A program made the translations under genes and the position numbers. 41,219 nt of DNA, from NCBI GenBank assembly GCA_021160245.1, contig JAGHCW010000069.1:1-41219 (forward strand), written 5' to 3'. Below the pieces are notes generated by a model that ran no database searches, was not told the origin of the DNA, and saw only the letters and a program-made list of their open reading frames with translations. Positions 14,239 to 34,209 of this stretch are shown in pieces; the stretch's first letter is position 1; each line of letters begins with the position of its first letter. This DNA comes from a bacterium (GTDB lineage: Bacteria; B130-G9).

Positions 14239-14589
14239 CTACTTTAGGACCCACCAATAGCTCTCGCCCTCCTCAAAATAGAAGGACTCCTTCTTGACCA
14301 CCGCATCATCTGACTGGCGCCTCGCCTCAGCCTCGTAATCGCCCTCGTCCAGGTCGCTGATCTTGGCCACTTCCCCGCTTTCAACACTGCATTGATAGAC
14401 AGTGTTCAGGTAGATATGAAGGTCTTCATCCGTGTCATTTGATATGCGGAACTTCGCGCCCACATAGACATGGACATCCTTGTCACAGCCGCCTGTTGGA
14501 AGAACCAGCGCTAGGGCGATAAACGCTAGAACGAAATATGCTAAGCGAGTCCGGATCAATCTCAATTTGCCAAAGTAATTCATCTGCAA
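14239..14589 (-). CDS. Small exported or lipoprotein-like protein
   Basis: The 116-aa protein has a basic N-terminus (KLRLIRTR) and a hydrophobic stretch, LAYFVLAFIALALVLPTGG, followed by Cys35. This resembles a lipoprotein signal, although the -3 Thr is not the usual Leu. The mature part is short and acidic. It has a beta-strand pattern (HVYVGAKFRISNDTDEDLHI near residues 40-59) and an aromatic end SYWWVLK, suggesting a single small beta-sandwich. No family recognised. It lies alone between tRNA-Leu and the end of the eight-gene membrane operon, with about 235 bases free of genes on each side. Confidence 0.6.
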   Translation of the reverse strand: MQMNYFGKLRLIRTRLAYFVLAFIALALVLPTGGCDKDVHVYVGAKFRISNDTDEDLHIYLNTVYQCSVESGEVAKISDLDEGDYEAEARRQSDDAVVKKESFYFEEGESYWWVLK

Positions 14590-14826: not shown

Positions 14827-15483
14827 TTAACCCGCAATAAAATTCCAGGTGCCAATTACCCAATCGTTGATGAGGAAGTTGAGGCGGCCGATGAGAAGCG
14901 ATATACGGGCCATGACGGTGTAGCCGAAGGAAGCGCCGAAGCCGACCATGAGGAAGACTATGCCAAGCCTGGCGGTGCCGCCGAGGATGCCCTTATGCTC
15001 CTTTGAGAAGAAGAAATAGATGAGTGTGGAGATTGTGCCCACGAGAATCGTAACAGCACAGAAGCCGGCCCATAAGCTCGGCTGGTCGATGATGTTTATC
15101 ATTGAGGCCTTAGTCTGCTGGATGATCCTGGTCTCAATTGTGGGAGGGATCGCCGTGCCGCAGCCGATCCCCATGACAAGGGCAATCGTGAATCGGCTCA
15201 GCCAATTGTATTTACGGCTGATTCTAAGCAGGAATAGCAGACCCAGAATAAGGGGAATAACTCGGAGCAAGTTGTATGGGTGTTCCCAGGACGCTGCCAG
15301 CGGGTTGAACAGGTAGGGGTGAAGTCCCTGGTGCCAGTTGATTGTGAAGATGTAACCGACTGATACGCCAACCACAAGGTGCTCGGCAAACTTATAGAAA
15401 GGATTGTCCTTATATAGGAAGGAGTAAATACTCAGAGTGAGAAAAGCCGCGACCCAGGTCCAGAAGAGCTCCATTCCTGTCAT
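14827..15483 (-). CDS. Module copy A, protein 4: multi-spanning membrane protein
   Basis: The 218-aa protein has about six hydrophobic helices. Its N-terminal region carries the motif SFLYKDNPFYKFAEHL near residues 21-36, between helices 1 and 2. The final third has ARLGIVFLMVGFGASFGYTV and ARISLLIGRL. Both motifs recur almost unchanged in the gene at 18326-18949, so the two are paralogues. The KDNPFYK stretch is the most conserved part and probably marks a functional loop. It is the last gene of the operon and starts one base after the preceding gene's stop. I do not know the function; a subunit of a membrane complex with the other three module proteins is my inference. Confidence 0.75.
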   Translation of the reverse strand: MTGMELFWTWVAAFLTLSIYSFLYKDNPFYKFAEHLVVGVSVGYIFTINWHQGLHPYLFNPLAASWEHPYNLLRVIPLILGLLFLLRISRKYNWLSRFTIALVMGIGCGTAIPPTIETRIIQQTKASMINIIDQPSLWAGFCAVTILVGTISTLIYFFFSKEHKGILGGTARLGIVFLMVGFGASFGYTVMARISLLIGRLNFLINDWVIGTWNFIAG

Positions 15484-15484
15484 G

Positions 15485-16351
15485 TTATGCGCTGCCTCCT
15501 TGTTGCGGAGTGGCAGTCTGCGCTGGCTCCCGGTGGCGCCTCGTGGCGAAGTAGGCGACGTTGCCGAGAATGATCAGGACGATGATGAGAATATGCGCAA
15601 TGGACTGGGCGTCCATCCCGATCGTGGCTGTCCCTGGCGCCCCGATGAGCTTCTCGTATTCGGCCGCCCCGCTGAGCCCACCAAGCAAGCCTTCTAGTTG
15701 TCCCGAGTTCAAGTATGGATAAGCGTCGCTTGCCATAACCGCTGTGACCCCGGCCCCAACCTTGCATCCATACTTCTGATGCGCAAACATGATCCAGACC
15801 TCATAAGCCGCAGAGGCGGTGAAATCAACCATTATGGCTATATCATCATAGTTCTTCACGTTCTTAAGGATAGGCAGCTTCGAGCTAGGAGTCCCATACC
15901 CGTCCGAGGGATACGTCGCTTGGAAGTTCTCACCAATTCCGAGAATGACCAGCGAATAGCCCGGCTTGTAGCCCATATATGCGTAATCCGTCCCGTAAGA
16001 CAGATTGGGATATTCCTTCGCAACGGTCTCCATGGCGTCTCTTGCAAGCCCGGCGCCGGTGGGAAACATGGTCGTTACGATAACCGGTATCTCCTTGCTG
16101 AAGCAGTGCCTGAGGACCGCAAGCGTCATTGGTTGAAGCTCCGGCACGGTCGATGGGTCATAATCCACGGAGACAAGGACAGGACGGCTCCTGGCGGGAA
16201 GCTGGTCTATGGCGTCATACAATCGACGCACCTTGTCGCCAACCACAATCGGGAGATTGAGCGGCATTATCAACGGCGCTACAACAGCAAGCGCCACGAG
16301 GACGAAAACGATCCGCCTATCCATCTGCAACAAAAAGAATAAAAACTTCAT
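15485..16351 (-). CDS. Module copy A, protein 3: two-anchor membrane protein with soluble alpha/beta domain
   Basis: The 288-aa protein has an N-terminal membrane helix (about residues 13-33), a soluble domain of about 200 residues and a C-terminal helix near residues 252-271. The soluble part shows an alternating strand/helix pattern: VLVSVDYDPSTVPEL near residues 58-72, CFSKEIPVIVTTMFPTGAGLAR near 88-109 and SLVILGIG near 134-141. It is followed by GQLEGLLGGLSGAAEYE and GMDAQSIAH just before the last helix. These match the gene at 18946-19803 position for position. The domain probably faces outside the cytoplasm, but topology is not proven. No known catalytic motif is visible. It is spaced 13 bases from the preceding and 1 base from the following gene. 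Confidence 0.75.
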   Translation of the reverse strand: MKFLFFLLQMDRRIVFVLVALAVVAPLIMPLNLPIVVGDKVRRLYDAIDQLPARSRPVLVSVDYDPSTVPELQPMTLAVLRHCFSKEIPVIVTTMFPTGAGLARDAMETVAKEYPNLSYGTDYAYMGYKPGYSLVILGIGENFQATYPSDGYGTPSSKLPILKNVKNYDDIAIMVDFTASAAYEVWIMFAHQKYGCKVGAGVTAVMASDAYPYLNSGQLEGLLGGLSGAAEYEKLIGAPGTATIGMDAQSIAHILIIVLIILGNVAYFATRRHREPAQTATPQQGGSA

Positions 16352-16364
16352 GCTATGACCTTTG

Positions 16365-17051
16365 TTAGTCCTTCATGCCGAGATACGTCCGTTCAATACC
16401 GAGCATGATCTTCAATGATGTAGAGGCCATCCCCAGGCCAACGCCTATCATAATGCCACGCTTTGCGGCCGTATTCGGGACATCGAGAATCCAGACAGTT
16501 ATCTCCTTCACGCCCGGTATCATCTGGCCAAGCGGCACACGACCGAGCATGACAATCATTGCCGCGATCAGGAGCAGCGTCGCCTCGAACGTTCTTGCCT
16601 TGAAAGCGCGGAATGCGGCCGAGGCGATATAGAAGGCGAGTAGAGAGAACATCGTCGCCTGTATGGGAATCTGAACATTCAGGAAAATCTCTTGGAAATT
16701 GAGCGCTTTCTCGAGGGCAGTTACAATCCATTCCCATGCGGAGCCCGTATCACATCCTGCATGGAGCTTGACGAAAAGGCCATATTTCGTCAGGAACCCG
16801 GCTATTATCATGTAGCATAGAGCGAAAAGCGTTACATAGCTATACCGATAGTTAGCAGCCTTTCGCTTCAATTTCATTGTGTGAACACGAACCAAACTGA
16901 TCAAACCGATGAAGAGCGCAATGGCCGAGATGATTCGTGCCCATTCAAGGGCTTGCTGATATACCCACGTCAGGGGAGGGATGAAGTTCTGCGACAGCAT
17001 CACTATGCCGGCAACGAAGCAGATTAGGAGAGGAACCTGTCTTCTCATCAT
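16365..17051 (-). CDS. Module copy A, protein 2: multi-spanning membrane protein
   Basis: The 228-aa protein has about six hydrophobic segments, starting directly after MMRRQ (PLLICFVAGIVMLSQNFIPP). The most conserved stretch, IPIQATMFSLLAFYIASAA near residues 128-146, is followed by a basic FKART and a helix ending IVMLGRVPLG. The C-terminus reads GVGLGMASTSLKIMLGIERT. The same pattern is found in the gene at 19805-20446. The positive FKART loop should be cytoplasmic. It has no recognisable transporter or enzyme motif. It lies 46 bases after the Fn3 gene, the widest gap within copy A, and 13 bases before protein 3. Confidence 0.75.
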   Translation of the reverse strand: MMRRQVPLLICFVAGIVMLSQNFIPPLTWVYQQALEWARIISAIALFIGLISLVRVHTMKLKRKAANYRYSYVTLFALCYMIIAGFLTKYGLFVKLHAGCDTGSAWEWIVTALEKALNFQEIFLNVQIPIQATMFSLLAFYIASAAFRAFKARTFEATLLLIAAMIVMLGRVPLGQMIPGVKEITVWILDVPNTAAKRGIMIGVGLGMASTSLKIMLGIERTYLGMKD

Positions 17052-17097
17052 GTCAAATCTGAAGTCCTATACAATTCATGAGTCCGGTGAAACAACG

Positions 17098-18315
17098 CTA
17101 CTGCCTAAAAATCATCAATGGTGTCTCAAAGAAATCCCGAAAGCTCTCGATGCCGAACAGAAGCGTAACAACACCAACTGCTATACAGCCAATAAGACAT
17201 ATCTTCATCCAGTCCTGTCCCTTGAGGCTGCCCAGAAGCAACGGAGCGCGGCTAAGGTATGCGCTCGCCGCGTAGAGCTCCTCGCCGATAAGAGTATAAT
17301 CGCAGGCCGCAATGAAGAAGGGTATCTGGGCCACCGCATCGGTGCCGGCTATCTGGATTGCGCCAGTCGATGCGCCGGTCTCAGCTAGAATCAGTGATTC
17401 TGCGAAGAACATGCCAATGAATAGGTTGGTTGCAGGCTTCTCCCGGACCATGATTCCATCGACCGCAGCTACGAACGCGAACTGGTTGGTCGTAACATAG
17501 AATACATCGTGCTCGTCGTAGGCGTCCGGTTTCCCGGCTGCGAGGAAGCCCTCTCGGACAACTTCCTGGGCCACGGTCATTACGATTGGATCGTAGTTGG
17601 GCACGATCACCCTAGTATTGTATTCGGCCACGGTCCTCGCAACGCCCGACAGAATGTTGATCGACGCGATTGTGGCAACATCGCTAATCTGGCTGATACC
17701 AGGAACGTATAAAATCGGCTTGCCCATTTCAGTTGCACGGCCGACCGCCTCGTCAAGCGCGTCGAGCCCGGCCAGTCTGCGAATGAAGAGTTTCTTTCCC
17801 TTTTTGGCGTGGAAGATGAAATAAAGGAGAAGAGTAATATAAATGATAGTCGCAATGAGAGTGTTAAGGCGACCAAGATTGAACCACTGGACCTTTGCCT
17901 GGACCGGCCCTGCTACAACGGAGGGCGCCTCACCCTTAGCGTCCTTGACGACAACCCGGTAAAAGTAGTTTACGTCGCTATCGAGGTCCGTCTCATCCGC
18001 AGCTTCAGACGAGCCCCTTGGCACTGACTTAACCGTCTGGAATGGGCCGTCGGGCGATGTTGAGCGACGGACATCGTAGCCGATAACATCCATTGCGCCG
18101 CCAGCGTCATCCGGCGAAAGTGTCCAGGAAATCGTTATCGCGCCACCAGCGTCGTCGGGCGCGTCCTTTAGCGCTACATTCGTAACTGGGGCGGGTGGCC
18201 GGTCGAAGGCGCTTGATTGAGCGTGGCCAGTTGCGACTAGCAAGACAAAGAGCAGCATGGGTAACGCTAGCGACAAAACTGCGCGGCGCAAAAAGCGATG
18301 AGGCCTTCTCGTCAT
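17098..18315 (-). CDS. Module copy A, protein 1: Fn3 and DUF6754-like membrane protein
   Basis: The 405-aa protein starts with a basic region and signal-type helix (MTRRPHRFLRRAVLSLALP). A fibronectin type III-like domain follows (about residues 30-130; NVALKDAPDDAGGAITISW). A membrane helix lies near residues 147-167 and a roughly 200-residue domain after it contains AVGRATEMGKPILYVPGI, ESLILAETG and CDYTLIGEELYAASAYL. A final helix closes the protein. The last domain resembles what I recall as Pfam DUF6754; a profile search would confirm it. I chose ATG at 18315 because it follows GCGAG and begins at the conserved signal region; the frame continues to a TTG at 18339 inside the previous gene. 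It is a paralogue of 20460-21656. Function unknown. Confidence 0.75.
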   Translation of the reverse strand: MTRRPHRFLRRAVLSLALPMLLFVLLVATGHAQSSAFDRPPAPVTNVALKDAPDDAGGAITISWTLSPDDAGGAMDVIGYDVRRSTSPDGPFQTVKSVPRGSSEAADETDLDSDVNYFYRVVVKDAKGEAPSVVAGPVQAKVQWFNLGRLNTLIATIIYITLLLYFIFHAKKGKKLFIRRLAGLDALDEAVGRATEMGKPILYVPGISQISDVATIASINILSGVARTVAEYNTRVIVPNYDPIVMTVAQEVVREGFLAAGKPDAYDEHDVFYVTTNQFAFVAAVDGIMVREKPATNLFIGMFFAESLILAETGASTGAIQIAGTDAVAQIPFFIAACDYTLIGEELYAASAYLSRAPLLLGSLKGQDWMKICLIGCIAVGVVTLLFGIESFRDFFETPLMIFRQ

Positions 18316-18325
18316 ATCCAACTCG

Positions 18326-18949
18326 CTATACCAACCCAAGCCAATCGTGGAGCAAGAAATACATCCTACCTATTAAAAGAGAGATACGCGCCATGACGGT
18401 GTATCCGAACGAGGCGCCAAAGCAAACCATGAGAAACACGACGCCGACTCTTGCGACTCCGCCGGTAACTCCCGTATGTGCCTTTGAGAAGAAGAAATAA
18501 ACAAGTCCAGATACCACGCCTACAAAAATTAGAAAACTATTAAGCACTACATACCAGGGCAATCCGGTCGGGTCAAGCGAAACTAGCGTGCTTTTTATCT
18601 GTTCGAGGAAGTTTGACTGCAAATATGTGATGATCATGAGGCCGGCGCCGGAGCCTATCATGAACGCAATCGCCCACCGGGAGAGCCATCCCACCTTCGG
18701 GATGAGCCTCATGAGCATGAATGCACTTAAAATCAGAGGCAGTAGATATTCCCAATTATGCGCCTCGAGGTTGTCAATTAGGTTCGGCTTGACCATATTC
18801 CAGTAGTTGTAACAGAGCCAGTAGCCGGCGGAGACGCCGACAAAGAGGTGTTCGGCGAACTTATAGAACGGATTGTCCTTGTAAAGAAAACTGAATATGC
18901 AGAGCGTCAGTAGCGCCGCCAACCATGTGCCGAAGAGTTCGAGGCTCAT
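18326..18949 (-). CDS. Module copy B, protein 4: multi-spanning membrane protein
   Basis: This 207-aa protein is the copy B partner of the gene at 14827-15483. It shares SFLYKDNPFYKFAEHL near residues 20-35 and ARVGVVFLMVCFGASFGYTV near the C-terminus, plus the same run of about six hydrophobic helices. The region between is more diverged, which suggests the two terminal parts carry the conserved role. Its ATG overlaps the preceding gene's TGA (ATGA, 4 bases), so translation is coupled. Copy A begins 10 bases after its stop, so both copies probably lie on one transcript. Function unknown. Confidence 0.75.
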   Translation of the reverse strand: MSLELFGTWLAALLTLCIFSFLYKDNPFYKFAEHLFVGVSAGYWLCYNYWNMVKPNLIDNLEAHNWEYLLPLILSAFMLMRLIPKVGWLSRWAIAFMIGSGAGLMIITYLQSNFLEQIKSTLVSLDPTGLPWYVVLNSFLIFVGVVSGLVYFFFSKAHTGVTGGVARVGVVFLMVCFGASFGYTVMARISLLIGRMYFLLHDWLGLV

Positions 18950-19803
18950 ATCACACCGCCTCCTCGTTTTGCGCGGCGCTTGCCCACGAAGTAGAATATG
19001 TTGCCTATGATGACGAAGAGCACGATGAGGGCGTGGGCGATTGACTGTGCGTCCATGCCCTTTGTCGCGGCGCCCTTTTCGCCAACCAGCAGTTCATATT
19101 CCGCGGCGCCCTTCATACCGCCCAAGAGACCCACCAGCTGGTTCGGGTAGTATGGATAGAGCATGGGGGCAGAAACTGCGGTGCATCCACCGCCGACCTT
19201 CTTGCCGTAGCGGCCTTGCGCCATCATGATCCAGAAGGGCAGGCCCGGATCGCCGGCCGACATACTCATCACGAAGTCGATGTCGGCGTAAGTGTTGATG
19301 TTTTTCATTAGGGGCAGGTCTTCTAGCGGCGTCCCGTCAACGTCTTTTGGGAAGCTCTCGTGGAAACTTTTGCCCAGGGAATCAATGACTACGAGGCCTC
19401 CGGCTTTGAAGCCTAGGTTCACGTAATCGACTCCGTATTTAACGTTGTAATCCGATCCTGCTTCCGAGAAGGTCGCCCTAGCAAGGCCGGCGCCTTGCGG
19501 CCAGAGCGCGAGGCCTACGACTTTGTGGCCTTTCCGAAAGCAGTGCTTCAGTATCGCCAGGCTCATAGGTCCAAGCTCGACTTCTGTTGCGGGATCGTAA
19601 TCGAAAGCCATCAGCACCACAGAGCCTCGCTGCAAACTCTCAATCTCCTGGAATAACGCTCTTGACGGCGGGCTCGATTTGAGAGGCAGACCAAGTGGGA
19701 ACATTAACGGAATGACCACGCTCGCCGCGACGAAGATGAATATAATCCGCCGGTCAATGTTCCTGAGTCTATCGACAATGCCGCTTTTTGCTTCGGGCGC
19801 CAT
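18946..19803 (-). CDS. Module copy B, protein 3: two-anchor membrane protein with soluble alpha/beta domain
   Basis: The 285-aa protein parallels 15485-16351 throughout. It has an N-terminal anchor (RRIIFIFVAASVVIPLMFPL), VVLMAFDYDPATEVELGPM near residues 52-70, and the matching CFRKGHKVVGLALWPQGAGL. GGMKGAAEYELLVG and GMDAQSIAHALI precede the C-terminal anchor, and the tail is basic (KRRAKRGG). The paired KN...Y.DI and YG.K.GGGCTAV positions are also kept. I chose ATG at 19803 because AGGCGG lies 8 bases upstream; a GTG at 19812 is open but overlaps the previous gene. The basic tail after the last helix suggests a cytoplasmic C-terminus. No function known. Confidence 0.75.
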   Translation of the reverse strand: MAPEAKSGIVDRLRNIDRRIIFIFVAASVVIPLMFPLGLPLKSSPPSRALFQEIESLQRGSVVLMAFDYDPATEVELGPMSLAILKHCFRKGHKVVGLALWPQGAGLARATFSEAGSDYNVKYGVDYVNLGFKAGGLVVIDSLGKSFHESFPKDVDGTPLEDLPLMKNINTYADIDFVMSMSAGDPGLPFWIMMAQGRYGKKVGGGCTAVSAPMLYPYYPNQLVGLLGGMKGAAEYELLVGEKGAATKGMDAQSIAHALIVLFVIIGNIFYFVGKRRAKRGGGVI

Positions 19804-19804
19804 G

Positions 19805-20446
19805 CTAGTCACCGCCTAGATAACTCCTCTCTATTCCGAGGATGACGCGCAGCGATGTGGCGACGACGCCGAGGCCGGCGCCCATCATAATCGCTCGTTG
19901 GCCGGCAGTGTTTGGGACAGCCATTATCCAATTCGCAACATCCGACATCTGTCCGCCTTCCGGCAAGAAACTTGTCATGGCGTCGCCAATCGGCGCCCTA
20001 CCTAGCATGACGATGAATCCTGCGACGAGGAGAAGAGCTGCATCCAGTGTGCGTGCCCGGAAAGCGCGATACGAGGCCGAGGCAACGAAGAATGCTAGAA
20101 GTGAGAACATCGTGGATTGCATCGGCACATGGACATTCTTGAAGAGGAAATCAAAAATTCCCCCCTCCTTAATTGCGCCAACAAAAAGACCCGGAATTGT
20201 CATGCCGGCCAGCCCGGCCAAGAGAACGATGCTGTATCCCCAGTGCGGACGCTTGTAGCGGATTTTATTGACGTGGAGCTTTGTGAGGTTGCAGATACCG
20301 AGGATCATCGCGAATGCGGCGATGATCATATAAGATTGCTGGAAATAGGACTTCATGCTGCCGAATGGCTCGTGAGGGATGAAGAACTGAACGATCATCG
20401 TGATGCCGCAGACGAATGTGATAATTAGCGGTATCTCGCGCCTCAT
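19805..20446 (-). CDS. Module copy B, protein 2: multi-spanning membrane protein
   Basis: The 213-aa protein is the paralogue of 16365-17051. Both start MRR followed directly by a helix (EIPLIITFVCGITMIVQFF here). Both carry VPMQSTMFSLLAFFVASAS near residues 111-129, a basic FRART loop and FIVMLGRAPIGD. Both end with GLGVVATSLRVILGIERSYL. About six hydrophobic segments are predicted by eye. The ATG has GGAG 8 bases upstream. It follows the Fn3 gene by 13 bases. It has no transporter or enzyme signature that I can name. Confidence 0.75.
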   Translation of the reverse strand: MRREIPLIITFVCGITMIVQFFIPHEPFGSMKSYFQQSYMIIAAFAMILGICNLTKLHVNKIRYKRPHWGYSIVLLAGLAGMTIPGLFVGAIKEGGIFDFLFKNVHVPMQSTMFSLLAFFVASASYRAFRARTLDAALLLVAGFIVMLGRAPIGDAMTSFLPEGGQMSDVANWIMAVPNTAGQRAIMMGAGLGVVATSLRVILGIERSYLGGD

Positions 20447-20459
20447 GCGTCAGTCTCCA

Positions 20460-21656
20460 TCAATTCACTTTGAGGAAATTAGTCAGCCAGTGATAGCCGG
20501 CCGTTTCAAGTATGATCCCGATCACTATGAAGGCGATCGCAAGTCCTTTGGCGACGTCTTGCCCTTTGAGGCTTCCGACGAGGCGCGGGTCCTCGGTTAA
20601 GTAGGCCCCGGCCGCAAAGAGCTCCTCGCCGATGAGCGTGTAATCACAAGCTGTTACGAAAAAGGGCAGCTGCGATGTCATTGCCGTGCCCGCTATTTGC
20701 ACCGCTCCAATCGAGTGGCCTGTCTCAGCAAGTATCAGCGATTCTGCGTAAAATGCCCCCTGGAAGAAGACCGTTGCAGGCTTCTCACGAAGCATGATGC
20801 CATCAACACCGGCCGCAAAGCCAAACTGATCGTCCGTAATATAGCGAACCATGTCTGGATGATAGGCGTCGGCCTTGCCCATATCCCAGTAGGCTTCCTT
20901 TACCGTCTCTTGCGCTGCCGACATGACGACGGAGCGCGACACGGGAACCAGAAGCGACGTCTCATATTCCGCTGTTTTCCTGGCGACACGGCCGAGAATA
21001 GCCACGCCCGCTATCGTCTGAACGTCGTCCATATCTAGAATGCCGGGAACGTAGAGAACTGGCCGGCCCATCTCAGTCGCGCGGCCGACCGCCTCGTCAA
21101 CGGCCTGAAGGCCGGCGATTGGTCTGATGTATAGGTCCTTGCCCTTGCGAGCCAATGTTATGAACGTCAGGACGGACGCGGATACGATCAGCAAGGCAAT
21201 TAGCATGTTCCATCGGTCAGAGTGAAACCACTGGGGGGATGCTGTGACCGGACCAACGACGCCGGAATCTGAAAAGGCGTCGCTGCTTGTCTCCGCGGTA
21301 ACTCTGTAGTAATAGCGCTTATCGTTCTCGACCTCTTCGTCATTGTATCGATATTCTTCCTTGCCGGAACTGACAGTCTTGATCTTGACGAAGCCGCTCT
21401 GGGGCTGTTCAGAGCGGTAAATGCTGTAGGAATTGACTGTCCCACGCCCTCTTGAGTCGTCTTTTGAGGCCTCCCACGTTATCTCTATCGCGCCACCCGC
21501 GTCATTGGGTCTATCTTGAAGCGCAATACCAATCGGAGGCCTTGGAGGCGCATTTGATGAGGAGGACCCGACGGGAAAGACGGTGGTGGCGCCAAGAATA
21601 ACAAGGACTACAACGACAACTGGCAATAGAACCCGGAGTGCTCTGATGCGTATCAC
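20460..21656 (-). CDS. Module copy B, protein 1: Fn3 and DUF6754-like membrane protein
   Basis: This is the first gene of the eight-gene operon. Its architecture equals that of 17098-18315: basic start and signal-type helix (IRIRALRVLLPVVVVVLVIL), Fn3-like domain (ALQDRPNDAGGAIEITW), membrane helix (ALLIVSASVLTFITL), then a domain with AVGRATEMGRPVLYVPGI, ESLILAETGHSIGAVQIAG and CDYTLIGEELFAAGAYL, and a last helix. I place the start at GTG 21656, giving 398 aa, because the N-terminus then aligns with copy A. The frame remains open to ATG 21800, which would add 48 residues ahead of the signal helix. A short coupled open frame lies directly upstream. Function unknown; the role of a ligand-binding or assembly subunit is only a guess. 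Confidence 0.72.
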   Translation of the reverse strand: MIRIRALRVLLPVVVVVLVILGATTVFPVGSSSSNAPPRPPIGIALQDRPNDAGGAIEITWEASKDDSRGRGTVNSYSIYRSEQPQSGFVKIKTVSSGKEEYRYNDEEVENDKRYYYRVTAETSSDAFSDSGVVGPVTASPQWFHSDRWNMLIALLIVSASVLTFITLARKGKDLYIRPIAGLQAVDEAVGRATEMGRPVLYVPGILDMDDVQTIAGVAILGRVARKTAEYETSLLVPVSRSVVMSAAQETVKEAYWDMGKADAYHPDMVRYITDDQFGFAAGVDGIMLREKPATVFFQGAFYAESLILAETGHSIGAVQIAGTAMTSQLPFFVTACDYTLIGEELFAAGAYLTEDPRLVGSLKGQDVAKGLAIAFIVIGIILETAGYHWLTNFLKVN

Positions 21657-21706: not shown

Positions 21707-21888
21707 GCAATTCTCTCCTTAACAAGCGCTGCTCTTTCGTGTCCTTGTATCGGACGGACACAAAGGTCACAGCTTCTAAAATACTATCCAACATTGTCAT
21801 CTGTCAAGAATGGCGGGAGAGCTAAGATGCAGATTGGCGCCGCGGTCTATATTGTGGGATAGACAGAAAGCCCGCCTACATAATCACT

Positions 21889-34134: not shown

Positions 34135-34209
34135 TGGGGCGTGGTCAAAATGGAACGACGCATGGCTTTACGCCTTGAAATGGGGGTTCAAATCCTTCCG
34201 CCCCAGCCA
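34135..34209 (+). tRNA. tRNA-Gln-like gene with UUA anticodon (possible suppressor or decayed tRNA)
   Basis: The acceptor TGGGGCG pairs fully with CGCCCCA, and the U1-A72 pair is the one typical of tRNA-Gln. The D-arm is GTC-AAAATGGAAC-GAC. The T-arm GGGGG-TTCAAAT-CCTTC pairs with two G-U wobbles, and CCA is encoded (34207-34209). The anticodon stem is CATGG/CCTTG, with one U-U mismatch, around loop CTTTACG. That places TTA at 34168-34170, complementary to the UAA stop codon. Position 37 is C where a purine is expected. The element is either a decayed tRNA-Gln or a suppressor. A TTGACA lies upstream at 34077-34082, but with only a weak -10. Confidence 0.7.

Follow-up and report, generated by a model that had tools for sequence, protein, structure and literature searches.

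Eight adjoining open reading frames (ORFs) on the minus strand of contig JAGHCW010000069.1 (assembly GCA_021160245.1, lineage B130-G9) form two consecutive copies of one four-gene module, in the order A1-B1-C1-D1-A2-B2-C2-D2. The stretch analysed, called the window throughout, measures 41,219 nucleotides (nt), and is contig 103 of a metagenome-assembled host genome of 3.43 Mb in 244 contigs. In each module A combines an fn3 and a DUF6754 domain, B and D are multi-spanning membrane proteins, and C is a two-anchor protein with an alpha/beta domain. The A-B-C-D block very probably codes for an undescribed bacterial membrane complex. The arrangement of eight contiguous genes in two four-gene copies had been proposed from the sequence in an earlier reading (hereafter the original prediction), and all eight ORFs have been confirmed.

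Two modules in tandem

The features of the region are the following.

20460..21656, minus strand: A1; three membrane helices (N-terminal, middle and C-terminal), with fn3 between the first two and the DUF6754 alpha/beta domain between the last two (PF20539, 406 bits; AlphaFold2 predicted local distance difference test, pLDDT, 92.6; fn3 structural match, Z 13.2)
about 21231-21557, minus strand: fn3 domain of A1
20475-21239, minus strand: DUF6754 Pfam match of A1
19805..20446, minus strand: B1; multi-spanning, about 6 helices, no known family
18946..19812, minus strand: C1; two membrane helices flanking a Rossmann-like alpha/beta domain that is predicted to be periplasmic; His and Asn conserved in the second helix (pLDDT 94.9)
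18326..18949, minus strand: D1; multi-spanning, with the signatures SFLYKDNPFYKFAEH and FGASFGYTVMARISLLIGR
17098..18315, minus strand: A2; second fn3 plus DUF6754 protein (PF20539, 398.5 bits), placed by the tree in the clade of last array modules described below
16365..17051, minus strand: B2; multi-spanning, 47% identical to B1
15485..16351, minus strand: C2; two-anchor alpha/beta protein, 45% identical to C1
14827..15483, minus strand: D2; multi-spanning, 50% identical to D1
21778..21807, minus strand: sigma-70-like promoter match upstream of A1 (TTGACA-18-TATTTT; 10 of 12 matches, the best on the strand; a consensus match only)

A1 and A2 are 49% identical, so that the identity between copies falls within 45–50% in all four genes. 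The two related four-protein membrane modules that had been put forward are supported. The motif SFLYKDNPFYKFAEHL is common to D1 and D2, and GMDAQSIAH, DYDP, PxGAGLAR and YGxKVG occur in both C1 and C2. All had been quoted in the original prediction, and are found in both copies. The PF20539 matches of A1 and A2 are far above the Pfam cut-off (27 bits), and span positions 2-256 of the 257 in the profile. No DUF6754 gene other than these two was found in the host genome.

Gaps between the eight genes, in transcript order, measure +13, -8, -4, +10, +46, +13 and +1 nt. Only one terminator-like site, a weak call inside A2, was noticed in the module region, fewer than in shuffled sequences. The near-lack of terminators and the promoter-like site before A1 fit the single transcript already thought probable from the short spacings. 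Taken mechanically, the A1 frame begins at 21800, within the promoter-like site; the start near 21656 given in the original prediction fits better.

Conservation of the module and age of its copies

GTDB genomes scanned with a DUF6754 alignment yielded at least 577 confirmed relatives, the best 80 of which were read as loci; since these are the most similar ones, distant forms of the module are under-sampled. The 80 loci reside in Coatesbacteria, WOR-3/Stahlbacteria, Zixibacteria, GN15, Fermentibacteria, Latescibacterota, Cloacimonadota, Eisenbacteria, Neomarinimicrobiota, Riflebacteria, Muiribacteriota, and one deltaproteobacterium. Phylum labels may be wrong in places, as two loci labelled Zixibacteria (L034, L047) group with Coatesbacteria loci in the tree. 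DUF6754 was found in 132/132 genomes of the Zixibacteria phylum, mostly in 4–6 copies, in 45/47 Eisenbacteria (1–7 copies), and as one copy in 38/61 Neomarinimicrobiota, including genomes near 0.9–1 Mb; the whole operon is retained in a genome of about 0.9 Mb. The domain was detected in 3 of the 58 genomes of the phylum to which the deltaproteobacterium belongs, and in none of 14 control genomes.

Profile searches identified 106 complete A-B-C-D runs in 85 loci, and modules often stand in arrays of two or three. The order proposed from the window is thus conserved elsewhere: no foreign gene resides between A, B, C and D in any of the 106 modules, and the median gaps between the four genes are 11, -1 and 3 nt. 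The four families also co-occur, as the original prediction supposed. Among Neomarinimicrobiota, D was found in all 38 genomes with A (A-positive), as opposed to 1 of the 23 without it (p = 1e-15). The lone exception also holds part of F1, a partner gene described below, and the bin may simply lack its A gene.

Pairwise module distances correlate for every pair among A, B, C and D (r 0.83–0.87). Because these correlations include species relatedness, a copy-choice test was made, in which the nearest copy in another multi-copy locus was determined for each module of a multi-module locus. In 78–86% of 1071 comparisons two genes of one module picked the same foreign copy. Patterns of this kind make it very likely that the A, B, C and D proteins of each module physically assemble, and the predicted composition of the complex is well supported.

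In a midpoint-rooted tree of concatenated module proteins, the last array modules from the phylum of the window, Zixibacteria, GN15 and unnamed bacteria form one clade (support 1.0), which includes copy 2 of the window. Copy 1 groups with sister genomes, beside WOR-3 and Latescibacterota. As the clade of last modules extends across phyla, the tandem copies are ancient, position-preserving paralogues. The three further genomes of the phylum likewise have two DUF6754 genes apiece. Identity to the window is 71–83% both for the orthologues of copy 1 and for those of copy 2; the two copies therefore predate the family.

Protein models and partner genes

The AlphaFold2 models of A and C are confident. 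C is modelled as a helix, a Rossmann-like domain and a second helix, in which the polar residues His260 and Asn271 are conserved. Structural matches of the C domain are near background: CODH epsilon scores Z 9.1 (147 residues, root-mean-square deviation, rmsd, 3.3) and TrkA Z 8.9 (139 residues, rmsd 4.0), and many unrelated rows fall within 1 of these values. The similarity to the Rossmann-like domains of CODH epsilon and TrkA/RCK is one of loose fold, at about 10% identity, and differs in that the C domain is predicted to be periplasmic; no relation is claimed. The charge bias on the sides of the helices, averaged over 101 modules, assigns fn3 and the C domain to the outer side of the membrane (periplasm), and DUF6754 and both ends of C to the inner side. 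The suggestion that the soluble domain of C is a catalytic part is unsupported so far, given the Rossmann-like model, the periplasmic charge bias, and the lack of an enzyme family or clear structural relative. No structural match of its own was obtained for the DUF6754 part in a Foldseek/VIA search with the whole of A, which was filled by fn3, DUF6754 not having been searched alone.

B and D feature about six hydrophobic segments and striking signatures. Neither Pfam nor NCBIfam has a family matching B, C or D, in line with the earlier statement that no function is described for the module; only scattered weak matches were found when all alignment members were compared to Pfam, and the profiles to the PDB. 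Some B proteins (17/42, best E 2e-6) match the TMD0_ABC family. This identity was rejected, as B1 of the window is not among them and no other support was found. A and C were considered as paralogues, since in both models six strands in the same alternating order precede the last membrane helix, but the profile comparison found nothing and no relationship is claimed.

Clustering of neighbouring genes revealed four recurrent families: the small F2 and F7, of about 115 and 150 amino acids (aa), the latter weakly PH-like, and the longer F0 and F1, of about 617 and 375 aa. In at least 9 named phyla they accompany the modules in the order F7-F2-F0-F1-(ABCD)n, complete or in part, and F0 and F1 usually adjoin the module. 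F0, which is encoded outside the window, matches the MutL/GlmL family PF13941 over its full length (423.5 bits, positions 1-450 of 450) and carries the almost invariant motifs ATDCGSTTTK, GVDIGGATTD and GSGG; by sequence, it is a homologue of GlmL/MutL-type (ASKHA) ATPases. F1, which has a mean column identity of 63% across phyla, has only a sub-threshold match to biotinyl/lipoyl or RnfC-type barrel-sandwich domains. PF13941 is present in 39 of 40 A-positive genomes, and F1 was detected in 38/38 A-positive versus 2/23 A-negative Neomarinimicrobiota (p = 2e-14). In the G271 operon a single protein of 1006 aa combines F0 with F1. It is likely that F0 and F1 act on ABCD, and the putative link of the module to an ATPase is well supported by linkage and co-occurrence. 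The gene set may now be defined as F2-F0-F1-A-B-C-D. The original prediction thus holds in that two modules are kept as a unit, but its picture was incomplete, since the ancient duplication, the GlmL/MutL-type ATPase homologue, F1 and F2 had been missed.

In the host genome, contig 231 ends with F2-F0, and contig 67 with the remainder of F0 and with F1, the two ends overlapping by 23 nt. Assemblies of the host (G000), G005 and G017 break in the same conserved F0 stretch. In the 'complete' chromosomes G009 and G017, where the gene appears split or inverted, the break carries runs of N. A split or invertible MutL gene in the four genomes was rejected in favour of assembly breaks. Genome G202 features a very divergent F2-A-B-C-D operon (L127:1186-6878), in which A measures 1055 aa and has a long extra N-terminal region, and F1 is missing. 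Because these genes are kept there without F1, F2-A-B-C-D is probably the minimal core. Stand-alone MutL/GlmL-F1-like fusions of 930–993 aa were found away from ABCD (L116:5047-7953, L117:3923-6898, L119:9844-12825, L115:738-3530). Their neighbours are mixed genes, and provided no function lead.

A putative envelope complex and its alternatives

The reading favoured here, to which a probability of about 0.5 is assigned, is that of an ATP-switched inner-membrane complex serving the diderm cell envelope. The proteins of each A-B-C-D module would assemble into a single hetero-oligomeric complex of the inner membrane, and the window would encode two such complexes, paralogous to each other and of distinct, ancient types. 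B and D would make the multi-spanning core; A would place fn3 in the periplasm and the DUF6754 alpha/beta domain in the cytoplasm, and C its Rossmann-like domain in the periplasm. F0, the GlmL/MutL-type ATPase homologue, the barrel-sandwich-like F1 and the small protein F2, encoded here on other contigs, would be the cytoplasmic partners. ATP binding and hydrolysis by F0 could be relayed through F1 to the DUF6754 domain, switching the complex. The switch would move the change across the membrane to C and fn3, and so support envelope assembly, transport or maintenance. The envelope role is tentative, and ATP-driven switching somewhat more so, both being drawn from neighbours, topology and protein class. 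Retention of the block in roughly twelve phyla, most of them uncultured, points to a probable basic function in the cell envelope.

Neighbouring genes point in the same direction in some lineages. In Zixibacteria (locus L064) a tol-pal operon (TolQ, TolR, TonB/TolA, TolB, OmpA-type and TPR proteins) flanks the F1-F0 side, ExbB, ExbD and TonB lie some 3 kb beyond ABCD in WOR-3, and the same tol/ton neighbour families were recovered by clustering in Fermentibacteria. Like Tol-Pal and ExbB/ExbD/TonB, near which it clusters in these three groups, the module appears as a multi-protein diderm inner-membrane system with soluble parts. In contrast to them, it has a partner of the ATPase type and not one from the proton channel families, and no homology of A-D to TolQ/ExbB, TolR/ExbD, TolA/TonB or Pal was detected by Pfam. 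In five WOR-3 loci (e.g. L016:3037-6119) a conserved block of five small genes follows ABCD; the first carries DUF4388, and the others have no Pfam match.

Several observations weigh against an ATP-switched envelope complex. The tol/ton neighbours may be chance synteny in a few lineages. F0 and F1 are not adjacent to ABCD in the host genome, and are not always needed, judging from the lack of F1 in G202. Many Neomarinimicrobiota A frames measure about 290–300 aa, too short for fn3, which is therefore dispensable. Nearly all genomes are metagenome bins, so that single absences mean little.

A transporter or channel is the foremost alternative, though rather unlikely. B and D would provide the route for a small molecule or an ion, with C and fn3 binding or guiding the substrate outside and DUF6754, together with F0 and F1, gating it inside. 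The two multi-spanning subunits of each module would suit this role, as would polar residues conserved within or close to membrane helices (His260 and Asn271 of C; the charged signatures of D), and several paralogous modules per genome could handle several substrates. B very weakly resembles the small Mrp antiporter subunits F and G, but the matches are far below cut-off (NCBIfam 15.7 bits versus 122, E 0.01; Mrp F in the PDB, E 0.41) and do not mark B as a Mrp-type Na+/H+ antiporter subunit; the other matches of B are scattered and weak, and D matches none of the transporter families. A transmembrane sensor, in which the periplasmic C domain and fn3 would sense the envelope state and DUF6754 pass the signal to F0/F1, is improbable. 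Soluble domains are predicted on both membrane sides, paralogues could sense different cues, and the DUF4388 protein and other small proteins beside ABCD in WOR-3 would be in keeping with signalling; yet the module was not seen to recur with any kinase, receiver, cyclase or transcription factor, and two multi-spanning subunits exceed what a sensor usually needs.

The family of F0 suggests a cobalamin-linked role, slightly less probable still than a sensor. GlmL/MutL has been described as a chaperone for the reactivation of glutamate mutase (PMC4682846). F0, a full-length PF13941 protein with nucleotide-binding type motifs, might similarly reactivate a B12-dependent mutase, ABCD importing or handling cobalamin or its substrate. 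Such a role would misfit, since glutamate mutase E (PF06368) is above cut-off in 0/42 carrier genomes, other B12 mutases not having been searched, and no mutase was found among the scanned neighbours. F0 further differs from GlmL in length (about 617 aa versus a 450-position profile), in scoring 229.6 bits against the NCBIfam GlmL equivalog (cut-off 475), and in being paired or fused with F1 and tied to membrane proteins. That the genes are kept together without forming a complex is very improbable: operons can hold unrelated genes, but the unbroken order in 106 modules, the matched copy choice in arrays, and the joint presence or absence across genomes argue otherwise.

An ATP-switched envelope complex would, if real, give a MutL/GlmL-type ATPase homologue a role apart from glutamate mutase. 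B, C and D are outside any named family, and A belongs only to a domain of unknown function, DUF6754, for which Pfam states no function. The Pfam name covers neither the fn3 part and the four-gene module nor the paralogous arrays and the link to F0/F1. No published account of DUF6754 or of such a module was found in the open-access literature, and the novelty of the module is judged on this literature and on the databases searched, in which no described relative was found. The carriers span phyla mostly with few or no cultured members. Presence in all Zixibacteria searched, in 45/47 Eisenbacteria, and in Neomarinimicrobiota near 0.9 Mb suggests that the module is probably important to them. 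It is possible, at a little less than even chances, that the module represents a new diderm envelope machine, made by paralogous four-protein complexes (up to seven copies per genome) with a GlmL-like ATPase switch acting via a barrel-sandwich adaptor, inherited at the phylum level and kept in streamlined genomes.

Two other genes of the window deserve mention. A small putative lipoprotein gene (14239-14589, minus strand; 116 aa, TTG start) resides downstream of D2; it was rejected as a module member, having no relative in sister loci. A tRNA gene at 34135-34209 (plus strand; Rfam 43.8 bits, CCA encoded) has the anticodon UUA, and would read the stop codon UAA, although B2, C2 and D2 still end in TAA. 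The three further genomes of the phylum have one relative apiece, 77–80% identical, with UUA, CUA or CUG (Gln) as anticodon, and the tRNA of the window is perhaps a Gln tRNA turned suppressor.

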